Shown here piece by piece: positions 36,330 to 54,364 of a DNA stretch of 64,000 nt. Below the pieces are notes generated by a model. The model saw nothing but the letters and a program-made list of their open reading frames with translations. It searched no databases and was not told the origin of the DNA. The translations under genes and the position numbers were made by a program. The stretch is from Gemmatimonadaceae bacterium (lineage in GTDB: Bacteria > Gemmatimonadota > Gemmatimonadetes > Gemmatimonadales > Gemmatimonadaceae): the NCBI GenBank assembly GCA_016742275.1, contig JACVCD010000004.1, positions 1-64,000 on the forward strand, in the 5' to 3' direction. Numbering within the stretch: position 1 is the first letter of the stretch; each line of letters opens with the position of its first letter.

Positions 36330-36367
36330 CGGAACTCCATCGCTGAGGGAAGAAGATCTCATGCATA

Positions 36368-36400
36368 GCTCGCACACACACCGTCAGTACGTGTGCGAGC
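36368..36400 (-). terminator. Hairpin between two leftward genes
   Basis: Arms GCTCGCACAC (36368-36377) and GTGTGCGAGC (36391-36400) pair perfectly over 10 bp with a 13-nt loop. It lies 16 bp past the end of the secreted-protein gene (36416) and upstream of the Rho-N gene. There is no T-run, so termination is plausible but not certain. Confidence 0.5.
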
Positions 36401-36415
36401 CATGGGATATGCGAA

Positions 36416-36904: not shown

Positions 36905-37059
36905 GATGACCTCCAAAGCATGTCGATGAATGAAGCAGCCGAGTGCGGCCCCATTCCATTCATGGGCAGGAAGCGGACCACAAGCGCACGGCCTCATCAG
37001 CCATCATGCGACCCATATCACGCAATCATGTCACGATCGGCTCCGTGCGAGCTCGTCAC

Positions 37060-37074
37060 TGGCACGTGGTTTGC
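37060..37074 (+). promoter_or_regulatory. Sigma-54 promoter upstream of DUF421 gene
   Basis: TGGCACGTGGTTTGC is an exact match to the -24/-12 consensus (TGGCAC, five bases, TTGC). The predicted start of transcription is near 37086, giving a 5' leader of about 23 bases to the ATG at 37109. Confidence 0.75.
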
Positions 37075-37108
37075 CCTTCTTCGTGCCCATCCATTGTGAG
37101 AAACGACG

Positions 37109-37642
37109 ATGCAGCTATTCGATGTTGATTGGCACGCGGTATTCGTACCGACGTTTGCGCTTGCCGAGTTGTTCGTACGCGGGTCGATCATGTATTTGGG
37201 CCTGCTCATGCTCATGCGCATCATGCGACGGCAGAAGGGGGCGCTCAATACAGCGGATTTGCTTGTTCTGTTGATTGTGGCCGATGCCGCGCAGAATGGT
37301 ATGACATCCCGGTACGACTCGGTGACGGAAGGACTCTTCCTCATCGGGACCATCATCGCGTGGGACTATGTGCTCGACCGAACCGCATTTCATTGGCCCG
37401 CATTCCGCAGGCTGCTGCACGAGCCGCCGTTGCTTCTCATCAAGGATGGGCAGCTGCAGCGACGCAATATGCGACGGGAAATTCTGACAACGGACGATGT
37501 GATGCAGCAACTGCGTGAGCACGGCATTGATGATGTGCGCGATGTGCAGGCCTGCCATCTGGAGCCTGATGGGCAATTCAGTGTCGTGCGCTTCAATGGC
37601 CAAGAGGTGGATGTAGCACCAGACAAGCGTCCTTTTCTGTAG
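37109..37642 (+). CDS. DUF421 membrane protein (YetF-like)
   Basis: Three transmembrane segments fall in the first 80 residues (LFVRGSIMYLGLLMLMRIM, LLVLLIVADAAQ, GLFLIGTIIAWDYVL). They are followed by the soluble DUF421 domain (PPLLLIKDGQLQRRNMRRE, LREHGIDDVRDVQACHLEPDG). The length of 177 aa is normal for the short form. The family is associated with envelope and spore or stress functions, with unknown biochemistry. It is preceded by a consensus sigma-54 promoter and followed by the isochorismatase-like gene 15 bp later. Confidence 0.93.
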   Translation: MQLFDVDWHAVFVPTFALAELFVRGSIMYLGLLMLMRIMRRQKGALNTADLLVLLIVADAAQNGMTSRYDSVTEGLFLIGTIIAWDYVLDRTAFHWPAFRRLLHEPPLLLIKDGQLQRRNMRREILTTDDVMQQLREHGIDDVRDVQACHLEPDGQFSVVRFNGQEVDVAPDKRPFL

Positions 37643-37657
37643 GGGCAAGACGTATCA

Positions 37658-38194
37658 ATGCCAACAAACAGGAGGTCCTCAACGAGACAATGGCGACGCG
37701 CATTATTGATCGTCGATGTCATACCGAAATTTCTGACACCGGTCACTCATCGCGTGATTCCCCACATCGCGTCTCTCATCGCCAAGGGACGTTATGGGGT
37801 CTACGTACTTGCGGAATACAGTGATCGGGGACCCGCAGGACGTGCCGTACCGCCGACGAGATGGCAGCGGACCTACGGGGATTTGCATCACAGCGAATTT
37901 ACGGTAACGCAGATTGCCGACGCGCTGCGCAACCGTCCTGTAGTCCGCGTGGTCAAGTCTACCCGCTCTCTCTTTGGCACCGACGAACGGCTTACACGCC
38001 TTCTCAGACGCCGCGGGATTCGTGAAATCCATATTGTCGGTATTGAAACTCACGACTGTGTGATGGCTACTGCATTGGACGCATTCGATCGTGATTTTAT
38101 TACCTGTGTGCTGTCGAAAGGCTGCGCATCCAAATCCCCGCGGCTGCACCGCGCCGCCTGCACCATTCTTCGGAAGGTCTTGCTGCTTCGATAG
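37658..38194 (+). CDS. Isochorismatase-like cysteine hydrolase
   Basis: The catalytic triad is visible: Asp20 in LLIVDVIPKF, Lys near residue 100 (VVKSTRSLFG) and Cys near residue 134 in VGIETHDCVMATALDAF. This is the cysteine hydrolase (isochorismatase/nicotinamidase-like) fold of about 180 aa. The substrate is unknown. It follows the DUF421 gene by 15 bp and is probably transcribed with it. Confidence 0.9.
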   Translation: MPTNRRSSTRQWRRALLIVDVIPKFLTPVTHRVIPHIASLIAKGRYGVYVLAEYSDRGPAGRAVPPTRWQRTYGDLHHSEFTVTQIADALRNRPVVRVVKSTRSLFGTDERLTRLLRRRGIREIHIVGIETHDCVMATALDAFDRDFITCVLSKGCASKSPRLHRAACTILRKVLLLR

Positions 38195-38202
38195 TGCAAT
38201 CA

Positions 38203-38217
38203 TGGCACGCCCCGTGC
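38203..38217 (+). promoter_or_regulatory. Candidate sigma-54 promoter upstream of SDR gene
   Basis: TGGCACGCCCCGTGC matches -24 exactly; the -12 element reads GTGC instead of TTGC, with correct GG-to-GC spacing. The leader to the ATG at 38253 would be about 24 bases. It is weaker than the matches at 37060, 40277 and 46320. Confidence 0.45.
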
Positions 38218-38252
38218 GCTGGGATTCCACAACCCATACGCGGAGCTCATCG

Positions 38253-39119
38253 ATGATCAACGAACCCGTCCCACCGTTTCCTCCTCAGCATCAGAAGCGT
38301 CCCGGCATCGAAGCGCGCATGTCGCCGCAGCCCAACTTCGAGGGCGCGGAATATCGACCGGCAGACAAGCTCAAAGGCAAGGTCGCGCTCATCAGCGGCG
38401 GCGATTCCGGAATCGGACGATCCACGGCGGTACTGTTCGCTCGCGAAGGCGCCAAGGTTGTCATTCTGCACCTCGCCGAAGAACAAGTGGATGCCGACAC
38501 GACGTTGCAGCATATCCATGAGATCGGTCAGGAGGCCCTGGCGCTCGTGTGCGATGTTCGGGATCCCGATGCCTGTCGCACGGCAGTTGAAGAAGTGGTG
38601 CGCACATTGGGTAGCCTCGACATCCTGGTAAACAATGCGGCCTGGCAACAGCGTCAGTCTTCTCTGGCCGATCTCACCGACAAGCAGCTCGAGCGTACAT
38701 TCGCCACGAATGTTTTGGGAATGTTCTACCTGAGTCGGGCCGCGCTCGAACACATTCCCAAGGGCGGCTGCATCATCAACACCGGGTCCATCACCGGACT
38801 CGAAGGCAGCGAAGATCTGCTCGACTACTCGGCCACCAAGGGCGCCATTCATGCGTTCACGAAATCACTCGCACGCAATCTCGTCGACAAGGGAATTCGC
38901 GTAAACTGCGTATCGCCTGGTCCGGTATGGACTCCGCTCAATGTGGCCGATAAGCCGGCCAAGGAAGCGGGGCGCCACGGGATGGATACACCCTATGGTC
39001 GCCCCGCCCAGCCCGAGGAAATCGCCCCGGCATTTGTATTTTTCGCCTCCAATGCTGATTCCAGCTATATCACCGGCGAAGTGCTCACTCTATTAGGGGG
39101 CAATGTCACCGCTGCGTAG
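38253..39119 (+). CDS. SDR-family oxidoreductase (YghA-like)
   Basis: The ATG at 38253 gives 288 aa with the N-terminal extension typical of this subgroup (PPFPPQHQKRPGIEARM). The cofactor motif GGDSGIGRST (about 51-60), NNAAWQQ, and active site with YSATKGAIHAFTKSL carry the Ser-Tyr-Lys features. The C-terminal YITGEVLTLLGG is characteristic. It is an NADP(H)-type dehydrogenase of unknown substrate, often part of general-stress regulons. Only 1 bp separates its stop from the convergent BON gene. Confidence 0.92.
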   Translation: MINEPVPPFPPQHQKRPGIEARMSPQPNFEGAEYRPADKLKGKVALISGGDSGIGRSTAVLFAREGAKVVILHLAEEQVDADTTLQHIHEIGQEALALVCDVRDPDACRTAVEEVVRTLGSLDILVNNAAWQQRQSSLADLTDKQLERTFATNVLGMFYLSRAALEHIPKGGCIINTGSITGLEGSEDLLDYSATKGAIHAFTKSLARNLVDKGIRVNCVSPGPVWTPLNVADKPAKEAGRHGMDTPYGRPAQPEEIAPAFVFFASNADSSYITGEVLTLLGGNVTAA

Positions 39120-39120
39120 T

Positions 39121-40215
39121 TCAGGACGTCATCGGTGTCGACTTCCGCCCCTGCTGCTTGGAATCCGCCGACTCGTTGTTCGAGCGACGATCGGAATCAC
39201 GAGCACCGTCGGCACGCTGCACGCGAATCTGATTCTGCACTTCACGCACGCCGGAGATTTCGTCCGCGATATCTTCGGCGAGGCGTTTCATCTGCCGATC
39301 ACTGGTCGTGCCGGTCAGAGTAACTTCGCCGTCCTTCACCTTCACTTCGATTTCACTGGCGTCCAGACTCCAGTGGCGCTCGAGCTGCTCACTGAGCTCC
39401 TCCTGAATGCGCTCATCCGAACGCTTCCAGCCCTTCGGACCACGGCCACTGTAGTTCTGCGATTCGGATGACGACGAGCCACTCGAGTAGCCATTCGAAT
39501 AGCCGTTGCCTTCACGCTGCCGGCTGCGAAGACTGCCGAATCCGTCTTCCATGAATTCCGATCCGTAATTTCCTGAATCGCGACGGGATTGCTGATTGTA
39601 GAAATCCTGCGAACGCGAGCGGTTCTCACGGCTGCGCATATAGGCTCCTCCGCCGTAGTTGTCGCCCTGCGTGTCGCCGTAGTACTGATTGTCCTGCATG
39701 CCACGCCACGGCCCGTTGGTCGGGGCTACGGTGCGTCCACCATACGACGGGTATCCTGGTGAATTCGACTGGCGATGCATGGGCGAGCCGAAGTTGTCAG
39801 CGTAGTTCTGACCATAGTTCTGGCTGTAATTCTGACCATACTGCGAATCGTATCCGCCAAACCCACCACCATCCGCCTGACCGTACGCATCATTGCGCTG
39901 GTCATATCGCTGCGAATAGTTGGTGGGATTGCGATCGTACGGCTCCCAATCAGAGCGACCGCGCTGACGATCACGGTTCTCGAAGCGCCCACGATCACGC
40001 TGATATCCATCACCCTGGTACTGATCTTCCGACGATCGATTGCGTTGGCCGTAGGATGAATTTCCATCATCCTGCTGCCATGAACGCTCCCGGCCGATAT
40101 ACACATCATCGTTCTCGCCCTGACGATCGTCTGCGTACTGCGCATGACGGCGCTGCGGTTCAAAACCGCGTGTGGATTCCCGATCCGCCGTGCGCGTGTG
40201 TGATTCGCGTGCCAT
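39121..40215 (-). CDS. BON-domain protein with long Tyr/Gln/Gly/Arg-rich region
   Basis: The ATG at 40215 is preferred to 40251, because GGGAG precedes it at a usable distance and it lies downstream of the sigma-54 promoter start. About 270 residues are low complexity, rich in Arg, Tyr, Gln, Asn, Gly and Asp (YGQNYSQNYGQNYADNFG). A BON domain follows (about 273-336: RIQEELSEQLERHWSLDAS, VTLTGTTSDRQMKRLAEDIA). BON domains bind membranes or lipids in envelope stress proteins. No signal peptide is present, and the disordered N-terminus could promote phase separation; that is inference. Confidence 0.9.
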   Translation of the reverse strand: MARESHTRTADRESTRGFEPQRRHAQYADDRQGENDDVYIGRERSWQQDDGNSSYGQRNRSSEDQYQGDGYQRDRGRFENRDRQRGRSDWEPYDRNPTNYSQRYDQRNDAYGQADGGGFGGYDSQYGQNYSQNYGQNYADNFGSPMHRQSNSPGYPSYGGRTVAPTNGPWRGMQDNQYYGDTQGDNYGGGAYMRSRENRSRSQDFYNQQSRRDSGNYGSEFMEDGFGSLRSRQREGNGYSNGYSSGSSSSESQNYSGRGPKGWKRSDERIQEELSEQLERHWSLDASEIEVKVKDGEVTLTGTTSDRQMKRLAEDIADEISGVREVQNQIRVQRADGARDSDRRSNNESADSKQQGRKSTPMTS

Positions 40216-40276
40216 ATGTCCGCTCCCGAAATGAGATGTGGCTGCTGCCATGATGAGCAGCGCGCAAACCTATTTC

Positions 40277-40291
40277 GCAATCACCGTGCCG
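40277..40291 (-). promoter_or_regulatory. Sigma-54 promoter upstream of BON gene
   Basis: Read on the minus strand, CGGCACGGTGATTGC has GGCAC at -24 and TTGC at -12 with correct spacing. Transcription would start near 40265, leaving about 50 bases to the ATG at 40215. Confidence 0.75.
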
Positions 40292-40451
40292 CGCGGTCGA
40301 ATGTCATGTAACTCACTTCACATTGCCATCACAGTGTATGCCCATCACCACATTGCAGAGTTCGCGTGTGACACATCACCGGTACTTCTCAACCTCCGTC
40401 TACACCGCGCAGTCCTTTGGCTGCAAAGAAGTGCATACGGAGGTTGCACCG

Positions 40452-40478
40452 GCAGTCCGAACCGTAAGTTCGGACTGC
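40452..40478. terminator. Hairpin after the sigma-54 activator gene
   Basis: Arms GCAGTCCGAAC (40452-40462) and GTTCGGACTGC (40468-40478) are perfectly complementary over 11 bp with a 5-nt loop, just past the stop of the activator gene at 40485. No T-run is evident. Confidence 0.6.
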
Positions 40479-40484
40479 ATGAGA

Positions 40485-42020
40485 CTATTCCTGCACTTGT
40501 TCGCCCAATCCGCCAGCGCGGATATTCCGTCGTGTCATCAGCTTTTGCAGACTCTGCCGATGCACACCGATAGTCTTGGCAGTTTGAGCCACGTTGCCAC
40601 CGTGTAGCCGCAACGCTTCTGTCAGATATGCGCGATCAAAATCGCTCAGGATAAGTTCGCGTGCTTCCATGAATGGAAGGTCTCCTGAATAGGTCGTGGA
40701 GCTTGGAACAGGACCCGGAAGCACGACGTCCAACGAACCCTCGGCAGGATGCTCCAACGTTTCCAAAAGATAGACAGGAAGATCCTCCAGAACGATCTCG
40801 TCGTTCTCACTGAGTACGAGCGCTCCCTCCATGCAGTTGCGAAGCTCGCGAATGTTTCCGGGCCACGAATACCAAAGCAAGGCTTCGGTGACTTCGCGAC
40901 TCAAAGCCTTGGGAGGTAAGCCGTGACGTTCAGCGAAGTGTCGGAGGAATCGCGTTGCGAGGAGTAGAACATCGGCGGAACGCTCTCTCAGCGCCGGGAG
41001 TGAGAGTCCGATGACCTTGAGCCGGTACAGCAGGTCCTCACGAAAACCGCCATGCGCCACCATGTGCTCAAGATTCCGATGCGTTGCCGCGATCACGCGT
41101 ACATCGACCGCCGTTGGGCGAGTTCCTCCAACACGCATTACTTCTCGGCTCTCGAGTGCACGCAACACCTTGGCCTGCGCTGACGGATCCAGGTCGCCGA
41201 TTTCATCGAGGAATAGAGTTCCTCCATTGGCGGCTTCGAAGAGTCCCATCTTGTCTCGAACGGCACCAGTAAATGCACCGCGCGTACTGCCGAACAGCTC
41301 CGACTCGATCAACTCGGAAGGGATGGCAGAACAATTGAGCGCGACAAACGGACGATTGCGGCGCCTGCTCTCTTCGTGCAATGCACGCGCAACCAACTCT
41401 TTGCCAGTTCCACTCTCACCGGTAACAAGCACCGTTGCATCGGTTGGTGCAACACGACGGACCCGGCGAAAGACTTCGCGCATATTCGGGGTAGCGGCAA
41501 ACATGCCGTGGAACTCATGCGCCGGCGAAAGACGAGTAGACAGCTCCCATCGTGTTTCTGCAGCCCGAAGCAACCGATCGAGATCGTCGCCGAGAATCGG
41601 CAATGTCAGAAGCGCATCCCCAGTCACGTACTGATCATCATCCTGCGGTATGTCTGCATCCACGTCGTCAAGAAGTGCCACCGGCAGTTGCGGCTGCGCC
41701 CTGCGCACCGAATGCAACATGGACATTCCGAAGGGATCGAGCATACGCCGATCGCATATCAACAGGTCGACAGCGGCAGGCCCAATAAGTGTATCGAGGC
41801 GTGAGAGCTGCTCGGCATGCACGACTTCGCGCTTCAGTACTTCAAATCCTGCTTTCAGTAGATCGTGCACAGCGGAACACGCGGTGACGACCAAGACACG
41901 AGCGACCGAACGAGGCTCACTCGACGCAGCAGCATCCGCACGAATTGAAAGGTCGTTTGTACCGCCAAAGAATACTCCGTCGGGTGCGATGGTCGCGCCG
42001 CCTGCATGTACCTGTAGCAT
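40485..42020 (-). CDS. NtrC-type sigma-54-dependent activator with degenerate receiver
   Basis: The ATG at 42020 has AAGGAG eight bases upstream; a GTG at 42047 is an alternative. The N-terminal receiver-like domain (about 35-155) keeps an Asp (LLICDRR, D90) but lacks the usual acidic pair (VVTAC instead) and the conserved Lys, so it may not be phosphorylated normally. The AAA+ domain has Walker A GESGTGKE (201-208), the sigma-54 contact loop GAFTGA (248-253) and Walker B GGTLFLDEIG (266-275). A Fis-type helix-turn-helix ends the protein (NVAQTAKTIGVHRQSLQKLM). It should activate sigma-54 promoters. Confidence 0.95.
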   Translation of the reverse strand: MLQVHAGGATIAPDGVFFGGTNDLSIRADAAASSEPRSVARVLVVTACSAVHDLLKAGFEVLKREVVHAEQLSRLDTLIGPAAVDLLICDRRMLDPFGMSMLHSVRRAQPQLPVALLDDVDADIPQDDDQYVTGDALLTLPILGDDLDRLLRAAETRWELSTRLSPAHEFHGMFAATPNMREVFRRVRRVAPTDATVLVTGESGTGKELVARALHEESRRRNRPFVALNCSAIPSELIESELFGSTRGAFTGAVRDKMGLFEAANGGTLFLDEIGDLDPSAQAKVLRALESREVMRVGGTRPTAVDVRVIAATHRNLEHMVAHGGFREDLLYRLKVIGLSLPALRERSADVLLLATRFLRHFAERHGLPPKALSREVTEALLWYSWPGNIRELRNCMEGALVLSENDEIVLEDLPVYLLETLEHPAEGSLDVVLPGPVPSSTTYSGDLPFMEARELILSDFDRAYLTEALRLHGGNVAQTAKTIGVHRQSLQKLMTRRNIRAGGLGEQVQE

Positions 42021-42059
42021 GCACGTATCTCCTTCAGTTGTCGCCACTGCATCGCGGCG

Positions 42060-42142
42060 ACTCCCGGCTGCTTGTAGGTGATTGCATTTCCTTTTCGAAG
42101 ATTAATTGTATCACACTTTTATGATTTTTTCCGTGATGCATA
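42060..42142 (-). promoter_or_regulatory. AT-rich upstream region of the activator gene
   Basis: This segment is much more AT-rich than its surroundings. On the minus strand it contains TGTGATACAATTAATC, where TGATACAAT resembles an extended -10 element. No convincing -35 was seen. It is the likely promoter region for the sigma-54 activator gene. Confidence 0.35.
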
Positions 42143-44398
42143 TCATGAAGCCTGGTCATCGGAATTAGTTGTTGCACGCATCAAATCAGTTTTTACAACA
42201 ACTATCGAACGCGCTACGGCATTCAACAGCGATGCCGAAGTAAATGGCTTCTCGAGGAATCGATAACGCGCAATATCCGATTCATCGATGACTTCCGTAT
42301 CGGAGTAGCCGGACATCAGAAGAATGGGCATGTTCGGCCAACCGAGTCCTACCCGTTTGGCGAACTCCACGCCATTCATGCCAGGCATCATGACATCGGT
42401 CAGCACGAGCTGGATGTCATGCTCGCCATCGGCCAACTGGAGCAGCGCATCATCGGCAGTCTTGGCCACTACAACTTTGTAACCCTGGCGCGTGAGAAGT
42501 CGATGCGTCACGTCGCGCGTTCCTGGGTCATCCTCAACGAGCAATACGGTGGCATTTCCGCGTGGCAACTCACTGCGCGAGCGACCACGCTCGAGTGGTG
42601 TGACCTCTCCATCTACCGCCGGCAGATAGAGCTTGAATGTTGTTCCCTTGCCGGGTTCGCTATACACCCACACACGGCCACCAAGCTGTGTGATGATGCC
42701 ATGCACCGACGCGAGGCCGAGTCCGGTTCCCTTGCCTATGGGCTTGGTCGTGAAAAACGGCTCGAATATCCGGGTCGCAGTTTCCCGGTCCATTCCGATA
42801 CCGGAATCCTTCACCACAAGACATACATGGTGCTGCGCTACATCCTCGACATCTGGTTCCACATTGTCGAGTTCGGCCATCATCGTGCGAATCGTCAGCT
42901 TGCCACCGTTCGGCATCGCATCAGATGCATTAACCGCCAGGTTGAGCAGGACTTGTTCGATCTGTACCGGATCCGCCATCACCGCGCTGATGGATGAATC
43001 CAATTCGAGAGCAATCGACACGCGTGACGGAAGCAAACGTTCGAGCATGGTCGACGCCCCGCGCACACTTTCATTGATATCCAGTCGAACGGGCTGAAGT
43101 ATCTGGCGACGACTGAACGCCAGCAATTGACGCGTGAGACCGGCCGCACGATTGGCAGCTTTGAGGATCTGATCAAGATCCCGCGCATTATCACTTCCTG
43201 GCTCAAGATCACTTTGGATGATCTCCCCAAAGTTGGTGATTACCGTCAGCACATTGTTAAAATCGTGTGCGATACCACCCGCCAGTCGACCGACGGCTTC
43301 GAGCTTCTGCGACTGCTGCAACTGCGCTTCGAGCTGCTGCTGGACCTGTGCGCGTTCCGACATCAACCGGAAGGCGTCCTCCAGACGTTCGATTTCGTCG
43401 CGACTGTCAGGCTCGGCAGCCGATCTCACACCGATTGGTGAATGGCTGAGTGCCATCTGATCCACATTGGCCGTCAGCCGCATTACGCGACCACTGATGC
43501 GTCGACTGAATAGCCAGGCAAGCGTGGCGCCAAGGATCGCCACGAGAAGCATTACCGGGGTCATGCGCCACAGGAACGAGTTGACCGGCTCCAGAACCTG
43601 CTCTTCGGACAGCTGCAGCCAGATGACCCATGGAGTACCACGAATGGGGCTCGCAACACCGATGCCGGAACCGCGCGGGGACTCATCAAAGCTGAAGACC
43701 GAATCCGTCGCCACAATTGTGGGAGGTCCGTCCACGACGTTTTCGAGATCGCTCCAGACGCCCGCGTCCGGTTGACCGAACAGCATCGTGCTGGTCCCGA
43801 TCAACTTCCGTACAGCCTCCGCGCCACGCCCGCGAATGGCACGGGTCTGCACCAGGTATCCAACAAGACTCTCGCCTTCCGGTCGCGCATGCACCGGAAT
43901 GACGTATTCGACTTGTGCCTGCTGATTGATTGCGAGCACCGGACTGAACGTGGCTTGCATTGGAGACAGCTCGCCTCGCCGATGTGCGCCTTCAACCCAA
44001 CTGGGCGCCAACGGTGCGTTGTGCAAACTGAGCGTGTGACGAACCACACCGGAGGTATCGACCAGTCGTATACGCAGCAGTGACGAGTCGGTGTTCCGCG
44101 TGATTGCGGTGCGCAGTGTTTGTGCCACACGTGCCGAGTCTTCGCTGCCCGTCAGCGCATGCCGTACGTCGTCCAGCGCGGCCAGTCGCATGAGCTCGCT
44201 GCGCGCGGCAGGCACACCATCGCGGATGAGTCCTGCCAGCAATGCGGCGCTGGAGGCCAGACGCGCTCCGCTCGTTTCTCGAAGCAGACTGCCGAACGCC
44301 CGATGTGCCGACCACATGAAGACGGCGCCAATCAGGAGTACGATTCCGGTCATCAGTGCCGGGAACTTCATGTCGAGCGAAAGCCAGCGACGTCGCAT
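42143..44398 (-). CDS. Hybrid sensor histidine kinase with C-terminal receiver
   Basis: GAGGAG precedes the ATG at 44398, so 44413 is less likely. The 751-aa order is: TM1 (about 12-32), a periplasmic sensor of about 240 residues, TM2 (about 280-300), HAMP, HisKA with GRLAGGIAHDFNNVLTV (His near 377), HATPase with LLNLAVNASDAMPNGG, VVKDSGIGMD and GKGTGLGLASVHG, then a receiver (LLVEDDPGTRD, phosphoacceptor LVLTDVMMPGMNG, EKPFT). All catalytic elements are present. It lies next to, and is co-directional with, the sigma-54 activator gene, though the activator is downstream with about 120 bp between. It is a candidate sensor for that regulator. Confidence 0.94.
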   Translation of the reverse strand: MRRRWLSLDMKFPALMTGIVLLIGAVFMWSAHRAFGSLLRETSGARLASSAALLAGLIRDGVPAARSELMRLAALDDVRHALTGSEDSARVAQTLRTAITRNTDSSLLRIRLVDTSGVVRHTLSLHNAPLAPSWVEGAHRRGELSPMQATFSPVLAINQQAQVEYVIPVHARPEGESLVGYLVQTRAIRGRGAEAVRKLIGTSTMLFGQPDAGVWSDLENVVDGPPTIVATDSVFSFDESPRGSGIGVASPIRGTPWVIWLQLSEEQVLEPVNSFLWRMTPVMLLVAILGATLAWLFSRRISGRVMRLTANVDQMALSHSPIGVRSAAEPDSRDEIERLEDAFRLMSERAQVQQQLEAQLQQSQKLEAVGRLAGGIAHDFNNVLTVITNFGEIIQSDLEPGSDNARDLDQILKAANRAAGLTRQLLAFSRRQILQPVRLDINESVRGASTMLERLLPSRVSIALELDSSISAVMADPVQIEQVLLNLAVNASDAMPNGGKLTIRTMMAELDNVEPDVEDVAQHHVCLVVKDSGIGMDRETATRIFEPFFTTKPIGKGTGLGLASVHGIITQLGGRVWVYSEPGKGTTFKLYLPAVDGEVTPLERGRSRSELPRGNATVLLVEDDPGTRDVTHRLLTRQGYKVVVAKTADDALLQLADGEHDIQLVLTDVMMPGMNGVEFAKRVGLGWPNMPILLMSGYSDTEVIDESDIARYRFLEKPFTSASLLNAVARSIVVVKTDLMRATTNSDDQAS

Positions 44399-44678
44399 AC
44401 TCTCCTCAAACATGCGTAAGACAACGCATCACAGAGGCAAATTCTCGCATGGACGCGAGCAACTCACGTGTCAGCACACTTCAATCGTATCGCCTCAAAA
44501 GGCGACGATCACATGCACTAATACTGTAGTTCCTACGCGTGGAAGCAAGTCTTTGCTGTGTGACAAATGTTGAAATCTTCCATTCACATTTCATGGATGG
44601 TGTGCGATTTCGACTTGATGCACCCGCGATTTGCGGTAGCTTCGGCCTGCCCTTCACCACCTTCCTCCCGAGCCCACC

Positions 44679-45569
44679 ATGGAACAGAAGACGGCGCACG
44701 ACTTTGATCAGGACCTTCTCATTCTGTTCGATGCCTACGTCCATGGCGGGATCGACCGCCGGACATTTCTTGATCGCGCCAGCAAGTACGCCGTAGGTGG
44801 TGTGACCGCGGTCATGTTGCTTGAGCAATTGAGCCCCAAGTTTCTCGAGGCGCAGACGGTCGCCCACGAGGATGCGAGAATTGTCCAGGAGTATGTCGAA
44901 TACCCATCGCCGAACGGGTATGGGACAATGCGTGGCTATCTCGCCAAGCCGGCGGGAAGCTCCACACGTGCGCCCGGCGTGCTGGTCATTCACGAGAATC
45001 GCGGACTCAACCCGCACATCGAGGACATTGCTCGTCGATTGGCGGTGGACGGATTCGTGGCCTTCGCGCCTGATGCCTTGTTCCCGCTCGGCGGGTATCC
45101 CGGTGACGAAGAAAAGGCGCGCGAGGTGTTTCCCAAGCTCGATCAAGCCAAGACACGCGAAGACTTCGTAGCTGCAGCGGGCTTTCTCAGGGCACGTCCT
45201 GAGTGCACGGGAAAGATTGGCGCCGTCGGATTCTGCTACGGTGGCGGTATGGTGAATTTTCTCGCGACGCGTATCGGCAAGGATCTCTCGGCTGGCGTGG
45301 CGTACTATGGGTCATCACCCAACACTGCGGACGTCGCCAAGATCTCGTCGCCTCTCATGATTCAGTCGGCCGAGAACGATCCGCGCATCAATGCCAGCTG
45401 GCCCGAATTCGAAACGGCGCTCAAGGCCGCCGGCGTGAAATACGAGCGGCATTTGTATCCCGGTACGCAGCACGGTTTCAACAACAACACAACACCGCGA
45501 TTTGATGCTGCTGCTGCCAAGTTGTCGTGGGATCGGACGGTGGCGTTCTTCCGGCAGAACGTGAGATAG
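44679..45569 (+). CDS. Dienelactone hydrolase-family protein
   Basis: An alpha/beta-hydrolase with the family's catalytic Cys in GFCYGGGMV (about residues 184-192), Asp in QSAENDPRINA (about 235) and His in GTQHGFNN (about 265). The N-terminal 60 residues carry IDRRTFLDRASKYAVGGVTA, which looks like a twin-arginine export signal preceded by an unusually long leader, a pattern common in this subfamily. It acts on ester or lactone substrates, identity unknown. A large nested palindrome follows the gene. Confidence 0.92.
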   Translation: MEQKTAHDFDQDLLILFDAYVHGGIDRRTFLDRASKYAVGGVTAVMLLEQLSPKFLEAQTVAHEDARIVQEYVEYPSPNGYGTMRGYLAKPAGSSTRAPGVLVIHENRGLNPHIEDIARRLAVDGFVAFAPDALFPLGGYPGDEEKAREVFPKLDQAKTREDFVAAAGFLRARPECTGKIGAVGFCYGGGMVNFLATRIGKDLSAGVAYYGSSPNTADVAKISSPLMIQSAENDPRINASWPEFETALKAAGVKYERHLYPGTQHGFNNNTTPRFDAAAAKLSWDRTVAFFRQNVR

Positions 45570-45591
45570 TGCGGATTCCGTCGGTTGGTTT

Positions 45592-45688
45592 GAACGGCGC
45601 ACGCAGAGACACAGAGTGAAAAAAGAGCTGCAGAGAGAATGATCTCTGCGGCTCTTTGCTTTTCTTTGCGCCTCTGTGTGCGCTGTTC
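45592..45688. terminator. Nested two-stem palindrome between convergent genes
   Basis: The outer arms 45592-45608 and 45672-45688 pair over 17 bp with two G.T wobbles. The inner arms 45622-45636 and 45643-45657 pair over 15 bp with one wobble around a 6-nt loop. It lies between the dienelactone hydrolase gene and the convergent DinB-like gene, so it may act as a bidirectional terminator. Its CTCTGTGTGCGC-type sequence and size also resemble dispersed palindromic repeats. Confidence 0.6.
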
Positions 45689-45718
45689 AAAGGCACCTGC
45701 AGAATCACATCTCTAGAA

Positions 45719-46222
45719 TCACGCCTTCGGCTGCGCGTCCATACCACGCCACAGATTGGATGTGGTCAATTCCGAACGACCACACAGCTTGAGATAGCAG
45801 AACAGCTGCGTGCGATAGGCCGCATAGTTGGCCAGCACCAGGCTCACAAAATGCGCACCACGCGTAGCCGGCGGTCCGAACAACTGAATCACGCCACGCA
45901 GCTCGTCGTCCGTCATGGCACCAACATGCTCAGCGAACCACGCCGGATGCGTGGCAAGCTTCGCATCGAGACCCGCAAGATCTGCGGCGTCGACTTCCGC
46001 CTGCGCTGCGCCCCATGCCGCACCGTCGAACGCGCCAGCCTTGATGGCCTGGGTCAGTACCGGACCCTGCAGTACGAGATAGCGAATGAGCTCAATAGTG
46101 CTGCGCTGCTTCTCCGTGGGACGGAAGTCCACCGAGGCAGGGTCAATCTTCGTGATCAGGTGGCGCAGCACATTGACTTCGTGCGTGAGGAGGCCGACCA
46201 GTTCGTCCTTGCTGAGAACCAT
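45719..46222 (-). CDS. DinB-like four-helix protein
   Basis: The ATG at 46222 gives 167 aa; the open frame upstream is not protein-like. Helical segments MVLSKDELVGLLTHEVNVLRH, TIELIRYLVLQGPVL and HFVSLVLANYAAYRTQLFCYLK fit the DinB/YfiT-like four-helix bundle. Conserved metal-binding His are partly present (HEVN, HFVS). Such proteins are often metal-dependent thiol-transferases, but no activity can be assigned here. It is divergent from the 46.4 kb operon. Confidence 0.78.
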   Translation of the reverse strand: MVLSKDELVGLLTHEVNVLRHLITKIDPASVDFRPTEKQRSTIELIRYLVLQGPVLTQAIKAGAFDGAAWGAAQAEVDAADLAGLDAKLATHPAWFAEHVGAMTDDELRGVIQLFGPPATRGAHFVSLVLANYAAYRTQLFCYLKLCGRSELTTSNLWRGMDAQPKA

Positions 46223-46319
46223 GAGTGCGGAAGATGGAGGGTGGTGCAACAAAACCTTGCTGCAAATTCGCCGTCCACGGCTCAGTACGCCAGCGTTCGC
46301 CTCAAATGAAACAGAAATG

Positions 46320-46334
46320 CGGCACAACCCTTGC
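46320..46334 (+). promoter_or_regulatory. Sigma-54 promoter of the DUF892/UGM operon
   Basis: CGGCACAACCCTTGC has GGCAC at -24 and TTGC at -12 with canonical spacing. Transcription would start near 46346, about 41 bases before the GTG at 46387. Confidence 0.75.
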
Positions 46335-46386
46335 GCACGAGTGACCACAAGAAGATTGGCGGCAGAATTCGACAGCGAGGACCACT

Positions 46387-46836
46387 GTGTTTGACTTTTC
46401 CAACGCATTCCTGATTCCGCGCACGAAACAAGAGCGGGAAGGATCAACGGCTCATGACACCGAGTCTCTCGAAACCGCCATTCTCCGCGCCATCACAACA
46501 CTTCAATGTCCCGATCTATTTCGTCTTTCGTTCTTGAGCAGTCGCCCATCGACTTCGGCAGGTGTTGTGATGCTGAGCATCGATCCGGGTCCCTGTCGAT
46601 CCGCAGTGACTGCCACGATGCGGATCCGCTCGTATTCAAGTCATGCGCGTGTCGCGATTCAATACGTAGTGCGCCATAGTCGCATCCATGGAGAAAGCCC
46701 CGTTCATTCAGTGAACGTCTGCAGCCTTGATCTCCCGACAGACGGGGAAGTACCCAATGCCTGGAGAGCGCGGGTCGAAGCGTTCACTGTCAAAGCCCTT
46801 GAACTCTCCTATCTGCATGAACACTTGGAACACTGA
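46387..46836 (+). CDS. Hypothetical protein, first gene of the DUF892 operon
   Basis: A GTG start at 46387 gives 149 aa. No motif was recognised, but the sequence has mixed strands and helices (TAILRAITTLQCPDLFRL, VQSVNVCS-like strands) and ends ELSYLHEHLEH. It begins just after a sigma-54 promoter and its end overlaps the DUF892 gene by 20 bp, both of which support translation. A non-coding leader cannot be excluded. Confidence 0.5.
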   Translation: MFDFSNAFLIPRTKQEREGSTAHDTESLETAILRAITTLQCPDLFRLSFLSSRPSTSAGVVMLSIDPGPCRSAVTATMRIRSYSSHARVAIQYVVRHSRIHGESPVHSVNVCSLDLPTDGEVPNAWRARVEAFTVKALELSYLHEHLEH

Positions 46837-47395
46837 CACCGCCGGCCCATCTGTCGAGGCATTCATGCGTCAGGACGCCCTTTATGCGTTGTACATCGAT
46901 CGGCTTCGTGATCTGCACAGCGCGGAACGACAGCAGCTTGAAGTGCTGGCAACGATCGCCGAGTCCGCGCCAGGAACTGAGTTTGGACGAACATTGCTCG
47001 GTCATCTGCAGGAGACAGCGGCGCAGGTCATACGCATCGAGCAACTATGCTGCGACCTTCGCACTTCCCCATTAGGAAGAGTGGCGCGCGGTATGGAGGG
47101 TCTGCTCCGCGATATCACGGAAATCATGGAACGCGATACGGAGAATGATGCCCGCGAGGCTGCGCTGATCGCCTGTGTCCAGGCGGCCGAACATCTCGAG
47201 ATCGCGGGGTACGGGACCGCACGCGCATATGCAGCGACCCTGGGGTTGGGTGACCATGAAGTTCTTTTGCAGCAGTCGTTCAACGAGGAATCCCGAACCG
47301 ACTATATCCTGTATGGGATTGCCCTGAATACCGTCCGTATCGATCCCGACACACTGGATCAAACCGTACGAGAAACGCAGAGTCATCGTGTTTGA
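46817..47395 (+). CDS. DUF892 ferritin-like protein (YciE/YciF type)
   Basis: The ATG at 46817 gives 192 aa. The DUF892 four-helix bundle is recognisable: YALYIDRLRDLHSAERQQLEVL, LLGHLQETAAQVIRIEQL and CVQAAEHLEIAGYGTARAYA, with Glu/His positions for a di-metal site. Family members are stress-induced rubrerythrin-like proteins of unknown reaction. The stop overlaps the next gene's GTG start by 8 bp. The usual first helix starts LQDLLIDELRD as in the paralogue at 52 kb, so this copy is divergent. Confidence 0.88.
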   Translation: MNTWNTDTAGPSVEAFMRQDALYALYIDRLRDLHSAERQQLEVLATIAESAPGTEFGRTLLGHLQETAAQVIRIEQLCCDLRTSPLGRVARGMEGLLRDITEIMERDTENDAREAALIACVQAAEHLEIAGYGTARAYAATLGLGDHEVLLQQSFNEESRTDYILYGIALNTVRIDPDTLDQTVRETQSHRV

Positions 47396-49733
47396 CGTCC
47401 TTGGTCGATCGGAATCGGCAACCGACCACTGTGCACCACCACTGTCGAAGTCCTGCACCATAGTCTGCTTCTCGCACCTGCGATGGGACTTCGTGCATCA
47501 GCGTCCGCAACATCTCATGAGACGCTTCGCAACGCACAATCGGGTAGTCTACTGGGAAGAACCGGTATTCTGCAGCGAATTGCCCGCGCCAATACTCGAG
47601 CAACGGGTATGCCCAGCGACAGATGTCGTCATCGTAACGCCGAGGCTTCCACAGGATATGCAGGATAGTTCATTCCAGCATGCGCTTCGCCCACTGTTGG
47701 ATGGCTTGCTCGCTAACTATCCCGGGCCCCTTGTACGCTGGTACTACACGCCGCTCATGTTGCCCTTCTCTCGGCATGTCATTGCGGCAGCGACGGTATA
47801 TGACTGCATGGACGAGCTGGCCAATTTCCGATTTGCCTCGCCTGCGCTCGGTCCTCTGGAAAGCCAGTTGTTGGCGATTGCAGATATGGTCTTTACCGGT
47901 GGATTCAGTCTGTTCGATTCCAAGAAAGATCGCCATCCGCACGTGCACCTCATGCCGTCGAGTGTCGACCGTGAGCATTTTGCCCAGGCTCGGAGCCTGC
48001 TGGCTATACCGGACGACATGCGAACGATCCCCGAGCCGCGCATAGGCTTCTTTGGAGTGATCGATGAGCGTATGGATCTTTCGCTGCTGGAACATCTGGC
48101 CGATGTGCATCCGGACTGGTCACTCATTCTGATTGGTCCGTTGGCAAAGATCGAAGAATCCGATCTGCCGAGGCGGGCGAACATTCATTACCTCGGCCCC
48201 AAACGCTATGAGCAGCTGCCTTCCTATTTGAAAGGATGGGAGGTAGCCATCATGCCGTTCGCGGTGAATGACTCAACCCGATTCATCTCACCGACAAAGA
48301 CCCCCGAGTACCTCGCCGGCGGCAGACCCATCGTATCCACACGCATCGCCGACGTTGTCCATCAATACGGCGAACGGGAAGGGGTATTCATTGCAGACAA
48401 CGCGAACACTTTTGTGGCGGCCTGCGAACAGGCATTGGCATTCCCTCGGGAAAGCAGAGATTGGCTCGCACAGATCGACGCCTTTCTTCTGACCCAGAGT
48501 TGGGACATCACCTACCGCCGCATGGCGGACCTGGTGGAAAAACAAATCGACGCTCGTCGTTGGGCTCGGCCACTCACCCCGTGGAGTGACTCGTACGACT
48601 TCCTCGTAGTTGGCGCAGGGTTCGCCGGCTCCGTGCTGGCTGAACGCATGGCGAGTCAATGCAACGCCAGGGTGCTGCTGATCGACCGGCGAGATCATAT
48701 TGGTGGGAATGCGTTCGATCGGCAGGATGCGGCGGGAATTCTCATTCACCAGTATGGCCCGCACATCTTTCATACGAACAGTGATGCCATTGTCGAGTAC
48801 TTGTCTGGCTTCACCTCGTGGCGTTCCTACGAACATCGGGTACTGGCTTCGGTACGTGATCAACTGGTGCCGGTTCCGATCAATCGCAATACGCTCAATC
48901 AACTGTACGGCCTGTCACTGGCAACCGATGCAGAAACGGCAGCGTGGTTTGCGCAACGCGCTCGGCCCGCCAGCGGTGGGCGTAACGCGGAAGAGGTCGT
49001 GGTAGCAGCGGTTGGACGGGAATTGTACGAGTTGTTCTTTCAGGGATATACCCGCAAGCAATGGGGCATCAAGCCTTCGCAACTCGATGGTTCCGTCACG
49101 GCGCGCATCCCCGCCCGAACCAATGGCGACAACCGCTATTTCCAGGACCGGCATCAACTGATGCCAGCCAACGGTTATACCGCCCTGTTCACCGCGATGC
49201 TGGATCATCCGAATATCGATGTTGCGCTGGGAGTCGAGTGGAATGAAGTCAGACAACTGGTTTCTGCGGATCATGTGATCTTCACAGGGCCGATCGATGA
49301 ATATTTCGGGCATCGGTTTGGCCACCTGCCGTATCGAAGTCTGCGATTCGATCATCAAACGTTCGATCGCGAGACATTTCAGGCCGTCGGCGTGATCAAC
49401 TATCCGCATTCCTCAGTGCCCTACACGCGCATTACGGAATACAAGCATCTCACTGGACAGAAGGCTTCACGAACCAGTATCAGCTACGAGTATCCATCGA
49501 GCAAGGGAGACCCGTACTACCCCATGCCCACAGCTCCCGCACAGGCCATGTATCAGCAGTACCGGGCTCTGTCGGAAGCCACGGCGGGTGTGACAATCGT
49601 CGGAAGATTGGCAACCTATCGGTACTACAACATGGACCAGGTAGTGGGACAAGCCCTCGCCACCTTCCATCGCCTCACCCAGGAACGCGTGGAACGACTG
49701 AAACACAAGACAGATCGCCCCATCGCTATCTGA
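47388..49733 (+). CDS. Glycosyltransferase/UDP-galactopyranose mutase fusion
   Basis: Two enzymes are joined in one 781-aa chain. Residues about 20-395 are a GT-B type glycosyltransferase (IVCFSHLRWDFVHQRPQHL, RIGFFGVIDERMDLSLL, FISPTKTPEYLAGGRPIV). From residue 401 a complete UDP-galactopyranose mutase begins, with the FAD motif FLVVGAGFAGSVLAERM, IDRRDHIGGNAFD, HQYGPHIFHTN, GYTRKQWG and a C-terminal YRYYNMDQVV. The mutase makes UDP-galactofuranose. The attached transferase may use that sugar or a related donor, which is inference. The GTG start overlaps the DUF892 stop. Confidence 0.94.
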   Translation: MFDVLGRSESATDHCAPPLSKSCTIVCFSHLRWDFVHQRPQHLMRRFATHNRVVYWEEPVFCSELPAPILEQRVCPATDVVIVTPRLPQDMQDSSFQHALRPLLDGLLANYPGPLVRWYYTPLMLPFSRHVIAAATVYDCMDELANFRFASPALGPLESQLLAIADMVFTGGFSLFDSKKDRHPHVHLMPSSVDREHFAQARSLLAIPDDMRTIPEPRIGFFGVIDERMDLSLLEHLADVHPDWSLILIGPLAKIEESDLPRRANIHYLGPKRYEQLPSYLKGWEVAIMPFAVNDSTRFISPTKTPEYLAGGRPIVSTRIADVVHQYGEREGVFIADNANTFVAACEQALAFPRESRDWLAQIDAFLLTQSWDITYRRMADLVEKQIDARRWARPLTPWSDSYDFLVVGAGFAGSVLAERMASQCNARVLLIDRRDHIGGNAFDRQDAAGILIHQYGPHIFHTNSDAIVEYLSGFTSWRSYEHRVLASVRDQLVPVPINRNTLNQLYGLSLATDAETAAWFAQRARPASGGRNAEEVVVAAVGRELYELFFQGYTRKQWGIKPSQLDGSVTARIPARTNGDNRYFQDRHQLMPANGYTALFTAMLDHPNIDVALGVEWNEVRQLVSADHVIFTGPIDEYFGHRFGHLPYRSLRFDHQTFDRETFQAVGVINYPHSSVPYTRITEYKHLTGQKASRTSISYEYPSSKGDPYYPMPTAPAQAMYQQYRALSEATAGVTIVGRLATYRYYNMDQVVGQALATFHRLTQERVERLKHKTDRPIAI

Positions 49734-49736
49734 CCC

Positions 49737-50900
49737 ATGCCTGCCACACCGGAAGAGGGATCGGATTTTTTCATTGCAGGTTTTGAATCCGCCTCGCAAC
49801 GGCGTGCAGACGGCGCACGGCTGGACCTCGTGCAAGCCACCGCGCACGACCGGTGGGCAGCCACGGACTATCGACAATGCGGAAGCCTGGGCCTCCGCAC
49901 GGTGCGTGACGGGCTGCGATGGCACCGCATTGAGTCACGACCAGGACTGTACGACTGGTCGAGCTGGACTCCCATGCTTGAAGCAGCGGAAGAAATCGGC
50001 GTGCGTGTGATATGGACGCTGCATCATTACGGCGCACCAGATCATCTGTGCCTCGGCAATCAACAGTACGTCGACCGATTCTCCCACTTCGCCGCCGCCG
50101 TGGTGAAACGACATCGGGAAATCACCGGCAGACCGGCGCTGATTTGCCCGATGAATGAAATTTCGTTCCATGCCTGGGCAGTAGGCGTGAACTACTTCGC
50201 AAACGACAATGCTCTCGATTCGCAGTCCGCCAAACGCTGCCTGGTTCAAGCGGCGTTGGCAGCCGTACGCTCCATGCGTAGTGCGGATACCGCCTGCCGC
50301 ATGATCTGGTCGGAACCGCTGATCCACGTTGCTCCCCACAGTGCACTGCAGGAGAGACCGGCCGAACAGTATCGTCTCGCGCAGTTCGAAGCCTACGAGA
50401 TGCTCATGGGTAGCTTGGAACCCGAACTCGGCGGTACTGGCGATATCGTGGAGAGCATTGGGCTCAACTACTATCCGCACAATCAATGGTACTTTGAAGG
50501 ATCTACCATTGCTCTTGGTCATCATGCATATCGACCACTGGCGGACATGCTGGCAGAAGTGCACGAGCGGTTTGCACGCCCTGTATGGATCGCCGAAACG
50601 GGTGCGGAAGGCTCGGCACGAGCCGCGTGGCTTCACTACGTGTGCGATGAGGTCCGTGCCGCAGAACAACGTGGTGTGCCCATCACGGGTGTCTGCCTCT
50701 TTCCCGTGACTTGCTATCCCGGCTGGGACGACGCCCGCTCCGTGGAAACGGGGCTGCTCACGGCGGCAAATGCGGCAGGAGAACGCACCATATACGCACC
50801 GTTGCTGCAGGAATTGCAGAGACAGCGCACGTTGCGCGCCATCCCTGCCCAATTTCCTACCATCAATCTTTCTCTTCGACGCCAGACCCAGGCTCTGTAA
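49737..50900 (+). CDS. GH1-like glycoside hydrolase, short form
   Basis: The protein resembles glycoside hydrolase family 1 / clan A barrels: LRTVRDGLRWHRIE, VRVIWTLHHYGAPDHL, acid-base Glu141 in CPMNEISF, and nucleophile Glu287 in WIAETGAEG. With 387 aa it is shorter than a standard beta-glucosidase, as in the sugar-operon subgroup. No signal peptide is seen. It starts 3 bp after the mutase fusion gene, so it belongs to the same operon and may act on the same glycan. Its end overlaps the convergent SDR gene by 38 bp. Confidence 0.9.
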   Translation: MPATPEEGSDFFIAGFESASQRRADGARLDLVQATAHDRWAATDYRQCGSLGLRTVRDGLRWHRIESRPGLYDWSSWTPMLEAAEEIGVRVIWTLHHYGAPDHLCLGNQQYVDRFSHFAAAVVKRHREITGRPALICPMNEISFHAWAVGVNYFANDNALDSQSAKRCLVQAALAAVRSMRSADTACRMIWSEPLIHVAPHSALQERPAEQYRLAQFEAYEMLMGSLEPELGGTGDIVESIGLNYYPHNQWYFEGSTIALGHHAYRPLADMLAEVHERFARPVWIAETGAEGSARAAWLHYVCDEVRAAEQRGVPITGVCLFPVTCYPGWDDARSVETGLLTAANAAGERTIYAPLLQELQRQRTLRAIPAQFPTINLSLRRQTQAL

Positions 50901-51720
50901 GCTTCGCGTGCTGAGCCGCTTTCATGGGCTCCGGCGTGATCTCGGAAATCAACGCCTGCATGCGATTCTTGATCGAACCCGCGACCACATGATCACGGCC
51001 GGCCATCAGTGCGTCGAACCCATCATTCGCTACATCAGCCGGCGGATCCTTGTCTGAACGTCCAGCCTTGGTATCCAACATGCCTGCACGAGCAAAGAAG
51101 TTGGTATCAGTGGCTCCGGGCTGCAGTGCGGTCACGGTGACACCCGTATCGCGCAGTTCATAGCGCAACGCTTCCGAAAAGGAATGCACAAAGGCCTTGG
51201 ACGCCGCATACACGGCGTAGTAGGGGCCAGGAGTCAGTGCGGCGATGGAGGAGGTGAACAACACTCTGCCCTCTCCCTGCGCCACCATATCCGGCAATAC
51301 CAATTTGGACAGCCGAACCAATGAACTGATGTTGAGCGCAATCAGGTTCATTTCGGCTTCGATACTGTTCTCGAGGAACGGGCCTCCCACACCGACCCCG
51401 GCATTCAGCGCCAGCGCGTGCACCGGACGTCCAAGTGCGCGCAACTGCTGGTAAAGAATGTCCGCTCCGTCGACCGCCGCCAGATCAACCTGCACAGGGA
51501 GAATCTCCTGTACACCGTTGGTTTGCAATGCACTGGGGACCTCATGAATGGCATCGTTCTCTGCCACAACAACTACATCGAAATCGTGACTGAGGAAGGT
51601 GCGCGCCAATTCCAGGCCGATACCGCTCGATGCACCCGTCACGACCGCGAGTCGTGACGGGGTTGCACGGCCCGAGCGCCGCTCCGAAATGGTAATGGTG
51701 CTGCGCTGCTTGTCCATCAT
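50863..51720 (-). CDS. SDR-family oxidoreductase
   Basis: The ATG at 51720 is preceded by GGAG at a good spacing; the long open frame above it lies antisense-like in the neighbouring intergenic region. A classical SDR of 285 aa with VVTGASSGIGLEL (about 25-37), LALNAGVGVGG and catalytic YAVYAASKAFVHSF. The C-terminal tail ends GSGVEEKD. Substrate is unknown. It is downstream of the DUF892 gene on the same strand (31 bp apart), so it probably shares that gene's sigma-54 promoter. Confidence 0.92.
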   Translation of the reverse strand: MMDKQRSTITISERRSGRATPSRLAVVTGASSGIGLELARTFLSHDFDVVVVAENDAIHEVPSALQTNGVQEILPVQVDLAAVDGADILYQQLRALGRPVHALALNAGVGVGGPFLENSIEAEMNLIALNISSLVRLSKLVLPDMVAQGEGRVLFTSSIAALTPGPYYAVYAASKAFVHSFSEALRYELRDTGVTVTALQPGATDTNFFARAGMLDTKAGRSDKDPPADVANDGFDALMAGRDHVVAGSIKNRMQALISEITPEPMKAAQHAKLTEPGSGVEEKD

Positions 51721-51751
51721 GTACTCCGGAGATGATGAGGCAATCGGTCCA

Positions 51752-52390
51752 TCATGAACGACGAGTCTTGCGAGGCGCTGCACCACTTCGTCCGCCACGT
51801 GAGCTGCCGCTGGCTGACTTCGGCGCTTCTGAATCCTCATCGGACGCCTCGTCTTCCTCGTCTCCTTCCTCTTCGTCTCCTCCCTCCTCCTCTGCCTCGC
51901 CCTCTTCGTCTCCCATGGCCACGAGTGACCGGGCAAGTTCTGCCAGCGCATCTTCCGCCGCCATTTCCTCTTCAAGAATGGTCTGGAACTGACCGGCAAT
52001 GTCTTCGTTTCCGATGGCCGTCGCGAGATCCACGAGAATCATGTACGCCGCCATTTCGTAGTGCTCAGCGCGTCGCGCACCAGCGATCAGTACGAGGTCC
52101 CGAACATCCTCGTCCGCTTCCGCGGTATGCTCATTGCCTTCCGTGATGATACCGGCAATTCCGGCACAGTGCTTTCCACGCGGCTTCACTTCGAGGGTCT
52201 CAAAGACGGACTCTAGAATCTCGACGTGTCCATTCGTTTCTTCGAGATGCGAAGTGAGAGCTTCCTTCAGTTCCTCACTTTGCGCCGTACGGCTCATGCT
52301 GCGCAGTGCCTTTGCCAGCTGCTTCTCGGCATCGTAGGCGTCGCGAAGCTCGTCGATCAACAGGTCTTGCAGTGCGTCGGTGGTAGGCAT
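51752..52390 (-). CDS. DUF892 ferritin-like protein with acidic/basic tail
   Basis: The ATG at 52390 gives 212 aa. The DUF892 bundle is canonical: LQDLLIDELRDAYDAEKQLAK, LTSHLEETNGHVEILESVF and RRAEHYEMAAYMILVDLA, with Glu/His metal-site positions. A C-terminal tail of about 45 residues is highly acidic (GDEEEGDEEDEASDED) and then basic (GSSRGGRSGAAPRKTRRS), which is not usual. It is a stress-associated protein of unknown reaction, preceded by a sigma-54-like promoter. Confidence 0.93.
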   Translation of the reverse strand: MPTTDALQDLLIDELRDAYDAEKQLAKALRSMSRTAQSEELKEALTSHLEETNGHVEILESVFETLEVKPRGKHCAGIAGIITEGNEHTAEADEDVRDLVLIAGARRAEHYEMAAYMILVDLATAIGNEDIAGQFQTILEEEMAAEDALAELARSLVAMGDEEGEAEEEGGDEEEGDEEDEASDEDSEAPKSASGSSRGGRSGAAPRKTRRS

Positions 52391-52453
52391 GTCGACACCT
52401 TGTATGCATAGGATGGAGTTCGAGCGACAGTCATCGCTCCATCCCAACGTGAA

Positions 52454-52468
52454 GCAAGTGTCATGCCG
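52454..52468 (-). promoter_or_regulatory. Sigma-54-like promoter upstream of the second DUF892 gene
   Basis: On the minus strand CGGCATGACACTTGC has GGCA at -24 and TTGC at -12 with canonical spacing; the last -24 base is T instead of C. Transcription would start near 52442, about 52 bases before the ATG, and the site lies 12 bases after the LigD stop codon. Confidence 0.65.
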
Positions 52469-52479
52469 AGCGCATATCG

Positions 52480-54360: not shown

Positions 54361-54364
54361 GCAT

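Follow-up and report, generated by a model that had tools for sequence, protein, structure and literature searches.

A proposed two-segment accessory island with sigma-54-type promoters before stress and envelope genes in a Gemmatimonadaceae bacterium

Promoters recognised by sigma-54 need ATP-driven activation to fire. Control of the biosynthesis of the cell exterior by sigma-54 and its NtrC-type activators (bacterial enhancer-binding proteins, bEBPs) has been described (Francke et al. 2011, PMC3162934), and in alphaproteobacteria the EcfG factor has among its targets ku-ligD and envelope genes in Sphingopyxis, and Ku and DNA-binding ferritin-like proteins in Sphingomonas (PMC7083833, PMC6599016). 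Here we describe a 64,000-nucleotide stretch of DNA from a Gemmatimonadaceae bacterium (contig JACVCD010000004.1, positions 1 to 64,000; hereafter the window), which is part of contig C12 of a 4.57 Mb genome in 33 contigs. Two island segments in this window, segment A (35972..42142) and segment B (46223..56080), carry -24/-12 sites near genes for DUF421, short-chain dehydrogenase (SDR), BON, DUF892 and Ku-LigD proteins, and segment A also encodes a bEBP. With moderate confidence, we read them as an accessory sigma-54 stress regulon in two segments, which its own bEBP probably drives, atop a wider link between sigma-54 and DUF892.

The locus resembles the exterior biosynthesis system in its -24/-12 promoters, in the association of activator genes with their targets and in its envelope and glycan targets, and differs from it by the addition of Ku-LigD and DUF892, the term 'DNA repair' having no occurrence in the main text of that study (PMC3162934). 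With the EcfG general stress response, as described in PMC7083833 and PMC6599016, it has target content in common; EcfG, however, is an extracytoplasmic function (ECF) sigma factor of the sigma-70 family, whereas the window implies sigma-54 and an ATP-driven activator. In the Borrelia RpoN-RpoS cascade with the bEBP Rrp2 (PMC4014564), a bEBP and sigma-54 likewise stand atop an adaptive programme, but sigma-54 acts there via RpoS, while the stress genes of the window appear to carry sigma-54 sites of their own, a difference qualified by the sigma-54 site that an ECF gene of this genus also has. Among titles and abstract beginnings in the open-access literature, we found no prior report of such a regulon, of DUF892 with sigma-54, or of RpoN with LigD end joining or BON; for Gemmatimonas and sigma-54 in that literature, only Francke et al. 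deals with sigma-54.

Sigma-54-type sites in the two segments

The genome has one rpoN match (PF04552 6e-64, with the RpoN box ARRTVAKYRD). Six sites in the segments have the sigma-54 promoter form, with GG at -24 and GC at -12, ten bases between them and a gene start nearby. On the forward strand, TGGCACGTGGTTTGCC (37060..37075, exact match at 37061) stands before the DUF421 gene, the weaker TGGCACGCCCCGTGCG (38203..38218; also given as TGGCACgccccGTGCG), with GTGC and not TTGC at -12, before the first SDR gene (SDR1), and CGGCACAACCCTTGCG (46320..46335, exact match at 46321) at the left edge of segment B. On the minus strand, CGGCACGGTGATTGCG (40276..40291, exact match 40277-40290) lies 60 bases before the BON start, CGGCATGACACTTGCT (52453..52468, exact match 52454-52467) in the gap between LigD and the second DUF892 gene (DUF892b), 62 bases before the ATG of the latter, and CGGCACACAACTTGCC (55313..55328, exact match 55314-55327) before Ku-LigD, 12 bases from the Ku ATG at 55300. 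The Ku site was absent from the first-pass annotation of this DNA, which had reported five sites about 23-52 bases before predicted gene starts; all five are present, four exact and the one at 38203 weaker. Not all of its gene assignments stood, as the BON start had to be moved, probably to 40215, and the site at 46320, said to precede DUF892, is followed, 52 bases on, by an open reading frame (ORF) of 149 aa without Pfam match, the start of the first DUF892 gene (DUF892a, 46865) lying about 530 bases downstream. The data support sigma-54-type promoters before stress and envelope genes, and, judged from sequence, the promoter part of the mechanism proposed below appears well supported.

Seven matches to the exact motif GGCAYN5TTGC occur in the window, five of them before genes (all in 37.0-55.4 kb) and two intragenic, at 43653 in the kinase gene and at 47600 in the glycosyltransferase gene. 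This compares with 2.17 in shuffles (at least 7 in 2 of 100 shuffles) and with 1.48 expected from the genome density of 106 per 4.57 Mb (Poisson P 0.0009). By number of matches the excess is modest; by position it is far stronger. Counting as promoter-type any match at most 150 bp upstream of a gene start on the right strand, we found the exact motif at 5 of the 15 gene starts of the two segments (hand-set, a few approximate), or at 6 if any base is allowed before TGC. Of 2738 permuted motifs scored on the same starts, 2684 gave no match, 53 gave one and a single one gave two, and gap lengths of 3, 4, 6 or 7 instead of 5 gave none. The only match on the opposite strand of the 15 stretches is the DUF421 site viewed from the divergent gene, and none of the 38 other window ORFs of at least 120 aa has the exact motif upstream. 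These figures are post hoc, because the region was chosen for its sites. Segments A and B hold all exact sites of promoter type together with the site at 38203; only a weak site before the kinase gene lies outside them.

Recurrence of the sites in relatives

We compared the window with genomes that include 29 congeners (G numbers denote genomes), genus and phylum being the ranks assigned by the comparison tool. The weights of the site scan were set by us from the sigma-54 consensus; an initial threshold of 16.3 yielded mostly noise and was then raised. Loci tested comprised 30 with DUF892 (phylum sample), 29 with DUF421 (23 usable) and 20 around related bEBPs.

The first-pass annotation had proposed conservation of the sites and their enrichment near DUF892, BON and DUF421 genes as checks, and the outcome differs by family. 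For DUF892, a correctly oriented site scoring at least 20.9 occurs at four of five loci of the genus outside this genome, with none in each of three control sets, and across the phylum sample a site of at least 20.4 occurs at 9 of 30 loci, the three control sets giving 1, 0 and 1; with the threshold at 19.9 the figures are 10 for the loci and 3, 0 and 1 for the controls. Eight of the nine phylum sites lie 59-81 bases before the domain; the nine loci are not independent, since four come from genus g5 and two from g25. For BON, the site CGGCACGCGGATTGCC precedes the G020 homologue (42% identical) at a distance of 63 bases from its start, close to the 60 seen in the window. BON is the immediate neighbour of the bEBP in the window, in G020 one gene stands between the two, and the bEBPs of both pair in a tree (0.93); the intended outgroup fell inside that tree, of which only this pairing was used. 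A BON gene in G018, adjoining a bEBP fragment, has the site GGCACGCGATTTGA, imperfect at -12. Around related bEBPs, a site of at least 21.5 stands before a BON or glycosyltransferase-like gene, at most two genes from the bEBP, at 6 of 20 loci (BON at L079, glycosyltransferase-like at L078, L085, L086, L087 and L092). The five glycosyltransferase-like proteins are mutually related by BLAST; three of them (G005, G015, G017) match in addition the N-terminal half of the glycosyltransferase (GT) that is fused to UDP-galactopyranose mutase in the window (GT-GLF), and the two beside receiver-less bEBPs (contig C17 of this genome, and G001) show no more than a remote relationship and lack any Pfam match. 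For Ku, a BrkB-Ku-LigD run in G029 is preceded by a site.

Several results weigh against the regulon as read here. No site faces the BON homologues of G002, G034, G039 and G049, no such site was found at 14 of the 20 loci around related bEBPs, 21 of the 30 phylum DUF892 loci score below 20.4, the DUF892 gene of G025 has no site, and neither does Ku in G018 and G007. DUF421 was rejected as a conserved sigma-54 target, its homologues having sites at 0 of 23 usable loci. In the window itself, the Ku site would leave the transcript with next to no leader, and about 530 bases separate the site at 46320 from DUF892a. In other genera, moreover, DUF892 sites occur without a bEBP motif nearby: a GAFTGA-type ORF was found near DUF892 at none of nine loci with sites, where four of the nine stretches are shorter than 13 kb, and at none of 11 without. 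The link between sigma-54 and DUF892 is therefore wider than this bEBP clade.

Further sites and gene groupings were seen in the same comparisons. Upstream of an ECF sigma gene, CGGCA(C/T)G....NTGC with the spacing of a sigma-54 site, and with two GTTCC words ahead of it, occurs in all 12 genomes aligned (loci L171, on contig C17 of this genome, L172-L176, L083 and L186-L190); the gene is 89-96% identical among most congeners where measured and 69% in G011, and its site possibly marks a sigma-54-to-ECF cascade. The 38203 site and the site before an ECF sigma gene in G012, G021 and G028 agree in their 14-base core. At L078:8676 and L092:11111, in two species, the identical site CGGCACGTCACTTGCT stands before glycosyltransferase-like homologues (65%) adjoining receiver-less bEBPs. 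At L386, in G122 of another genus, a DUF892 match has in its surroundings, within 19 kb, LigD, Ku and two ORFs that match GT-GLF at 52-54% identity; neither DUF892 nor Ku is preceded there by an above-threshold sigma-54 site. In G020 and G029, an exact GGCACGN4TTGC lies shortly before the genes of two proteins (L333 and L347) that by eye have the stretch MSRILEEP..DPI in common, a candidate for an extra sigma-54 target.

The putative activator and competing explanations

In the mechanism that we propose, several transcription units of the island of DUF421, SDR, BON, two DUF892, GT-GLF fusion and Ku-LigD genes would start from sigma-54 promoters, RNA polymerase with sigma-54 would be held closed at the -24/-12 elements, and the bEBP of segment A, a member of a clade in this genus, would most likely open the closed complexes. 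The sites themselves, by letters, spacing and place, their return in certain relatives, rpoN and the GAFTGA-bearing AAA+ domain are observed; the local bEBP as activator, the transcription units as drawn and the stress-response output are what we infer, the identity of the activator from its co-location with the sites and its pairing with BON. The bEBP gene (40485..42047, minus strand) was rightly called an NtrC-type activator in the first-pass annotation: it encodes a degenerate receiver, an AAA+ domain (PF00158 8e-70) with GAFTGA and the Walker motif GESGTGKE, and a Fis-type helix-turn-helix (PF02954 2e-7). The acidic pair, the lysine and the aspartate of a receiver belong to its phosphorylation pocket; wherever an aligned bEBP copy includes a receiver, other residues stand in for the acidic pair and the lysine and the aspartate is kept. 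The window bEBP has no Response_reg profile match, and its receiver lacks the canonical pocket. This degenerate receiver suggests control by abundance or by a non-canonical signal, not by the adjoining kinase. Relatives of the bEBP, 53-58% identical over most of their length, occur in 14 of the 29 congeners, and the recognition helix is nearly invariant among the copies reaching that far, except L095.

The earlier claim that one activator controls an envelope and DNA-protection regulon stood as to the promoters; control by this particular activator is an assignment against which an unlikely, yet serious, alternative must be set, namely that the promoters are sigma-54-dependent and have, in part or throughout, another bEBP as their activator, with BON or little else left to the local one. 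The genome has 16 PF00158 matches, of which 11 are strong, so that ten further strong bEBPs would be at hand, and one of these, the receiver-less paralogue on contig C17, has a near-identical recognition helix and by gene order occupies the position usual for the bEBP of most relatives. The DUF892 sites without a linked bEBP motif in other genera (0 of 9) point the same way, as does the enhancer search, in which neither expectation maximization (EM) nor a motif derived from relatives gave an enhancer common to the window promoters. On the 15 upstream regions, EM scored 161.5 at width 12, 176.8 at width 15 and 188.6 at width 18, the best of three shuffles each reaching 160.8, 170.3 and 182.1; we make no claim from so small an excess. 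Sequences of GTGAYG type recur in relatives and are absent at most window promoters; an enhancer match at two promoters was dropped as circular. Against another activator speak the clustering of the promoter-type sites in the two segments, including the one with this bEBP gene, and the joint occurrence of BON and bEBP with a similar promoter in G020.

That chance alone produced these matches, in a stretch slightly richer in AT, is improbable. Such a reading could appeal to the genome-wide scan, in which the exact motif is not enriched (106 matches against 98 in the control) and GGCACGN5TGC is under-represented (87 against 171), and to base composition, the 4-kb bins from 36 to 56 kb having 57-59% G+C against 60-63% in most others, a contrast limited by two bins elsewhere in the window with 56% and 54%. 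Because the motif is not enriched across the genome, the signal is local and positional, and most genome matches are probably chance. Within the segments, no decoy of equal composition scores at more than 2 of the 15 starts, and diverged homologues keep a similar site position and spacing, both of which argue against chance. Among 97 of the 106 genome matches (3 listed and 6 unlisted places were left out), 25 have a start at most 150 bp downstream, many of these being alternative starts within genes; five of the 25 fall in this 18 kb, where 0.08 would be expected (again post hoc). Those with a start outside the window include a pilin-like gene (L133, labelled from its sequence) and a gene adjoining a bEBP paralogue (L078).

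Least probable of all is that the hybrid histidine kinase (42143..44413, minus strand; profile match), which the first-pass annotation had by implication counted to the module and which is adjacent to the bEBP on the same strand with the weak site TGACACgtgagTTGCT (TGACAC...TTGC type) 45 bases before it, forms one two-component module with the bEBP to drive the regulon, since in G001 and G022 the kinase stands between DLH and SDR genes without a bEBP, no comparable site precedes its homologues in G001, G022 and G020 at the threshold used, the receivers of the bEBP clade lack the acidic pair and the lysine, and many bEBP relatives adjoin a different kinase and a stand-alone receiver. The kinase was therefore rejected as regulon partner: as it adjoins the SDR gene in G001 and G022, where the activator segment is missing, we place it in the backbone, outside the module, and, lying between the segments, it is probably unrelated to the regulon. 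We dropped sites found at kinase genes in G007 and G018, because they overlap coding frames, lie 3 bases from a start that is itself uncertain and occur in no more than two close relatives.

Island structure, gene content and implications

The kinase of G001 and G022 is flanked on one side by the SDR gene whose window start is 35971 and on the other by DLH and a conserved gene of unknown family; blastn and gene order show that window 35.97-42.14 kb (segment A) has no counterpart at that place. Segment B, from 46.22 to about 56.1 kb, is missing beside the conserved unknown-family gene in both genomes; its left border is set against both, and its right border, which is approximate, against G001 alone. 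There, a 311-aa gene and a homologue of window gene 4290-5576 take the place of the segment. No DUF892, Ku or BON of this type matched elsewhere in G001 and G022. The conserved gene itself (45719-46222) we take to be of unknown family, the label 'DinB-like' not being confirmed by any Pfam match. The segments may have been gained in this genome or lost in the relatives; the window has no tRNA, and the segment borders have no 11-mer in common. Further upstream, window 28.7-34.3 kb (a 952-aa protein and RecQ) is without nucleotide-level match in the G001 contig between matching flanks, and this neighbourhood may be an insertion hot spot.

Judged from domains alone, the content of the segments is DNA protection and repair, envelope and oxidative stress, as in general stress response regulons. 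On the forward strand, segment A encodes the DUF421 protein with a YetF C-terminal domain (37109..37642, PF04239 2e-18), an isochorismatase-family protein downstream of it (37658..38194, PF00857 7e-22) and SDR1 (38253..39119, PF13561 3e-57), and on the minus strand, besides the bEBP, the BON-domain protein (39121..40215, PF04972 2e-18, with its probable start set by comparison). In segment B, the forward strand carries the possible 149-aa ORF (46387..46836), which has a weak coding signal, DUF892a (46865..47395, PF05974 8e-32), GT-GLF (47388..49733, PF03275 1e-75 and PF13692) and a protein (49737..50900) whose former label 'GH1-like' is not borne out, as it has no Pfam match at 1e-3. On the minus strand follow SDR2 (50863..51999, PF00106 4e-45, start uncertain), DUF892b (51752..52390, PF05974 5e-45), LigD with ligase and primase-polymerase (52480..54360, PF21686 5e-88 and PF01068) and Ku (54365..55300, PF02735 9e-45, start corrected to 55300).

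Beyond this locus, we tentatively put forward a broader proposal, which we regard as possible though doubtful: that in this phylum sigma-54, and not a factor of the sigma-70 family, would directly run a general-stress programme of DUF892 ferritin-like proteins, BON, Ku-LigD end joining and surface glycans, whole pieces of which would move from genome to genome together with a matching activator and insert around unrelated backbone genes. The phylum-wide association of sigma-54 sites with DUF892 lends itself to direct testing. As ATP-driven activation is obligatory at sigma-54 promoters, stress survival and end joining under sigma-54 would, if the proposal is true, be controlled tightly and in an all-or-none manner, in contrast to sigma-70-type factors, which compete with one another.

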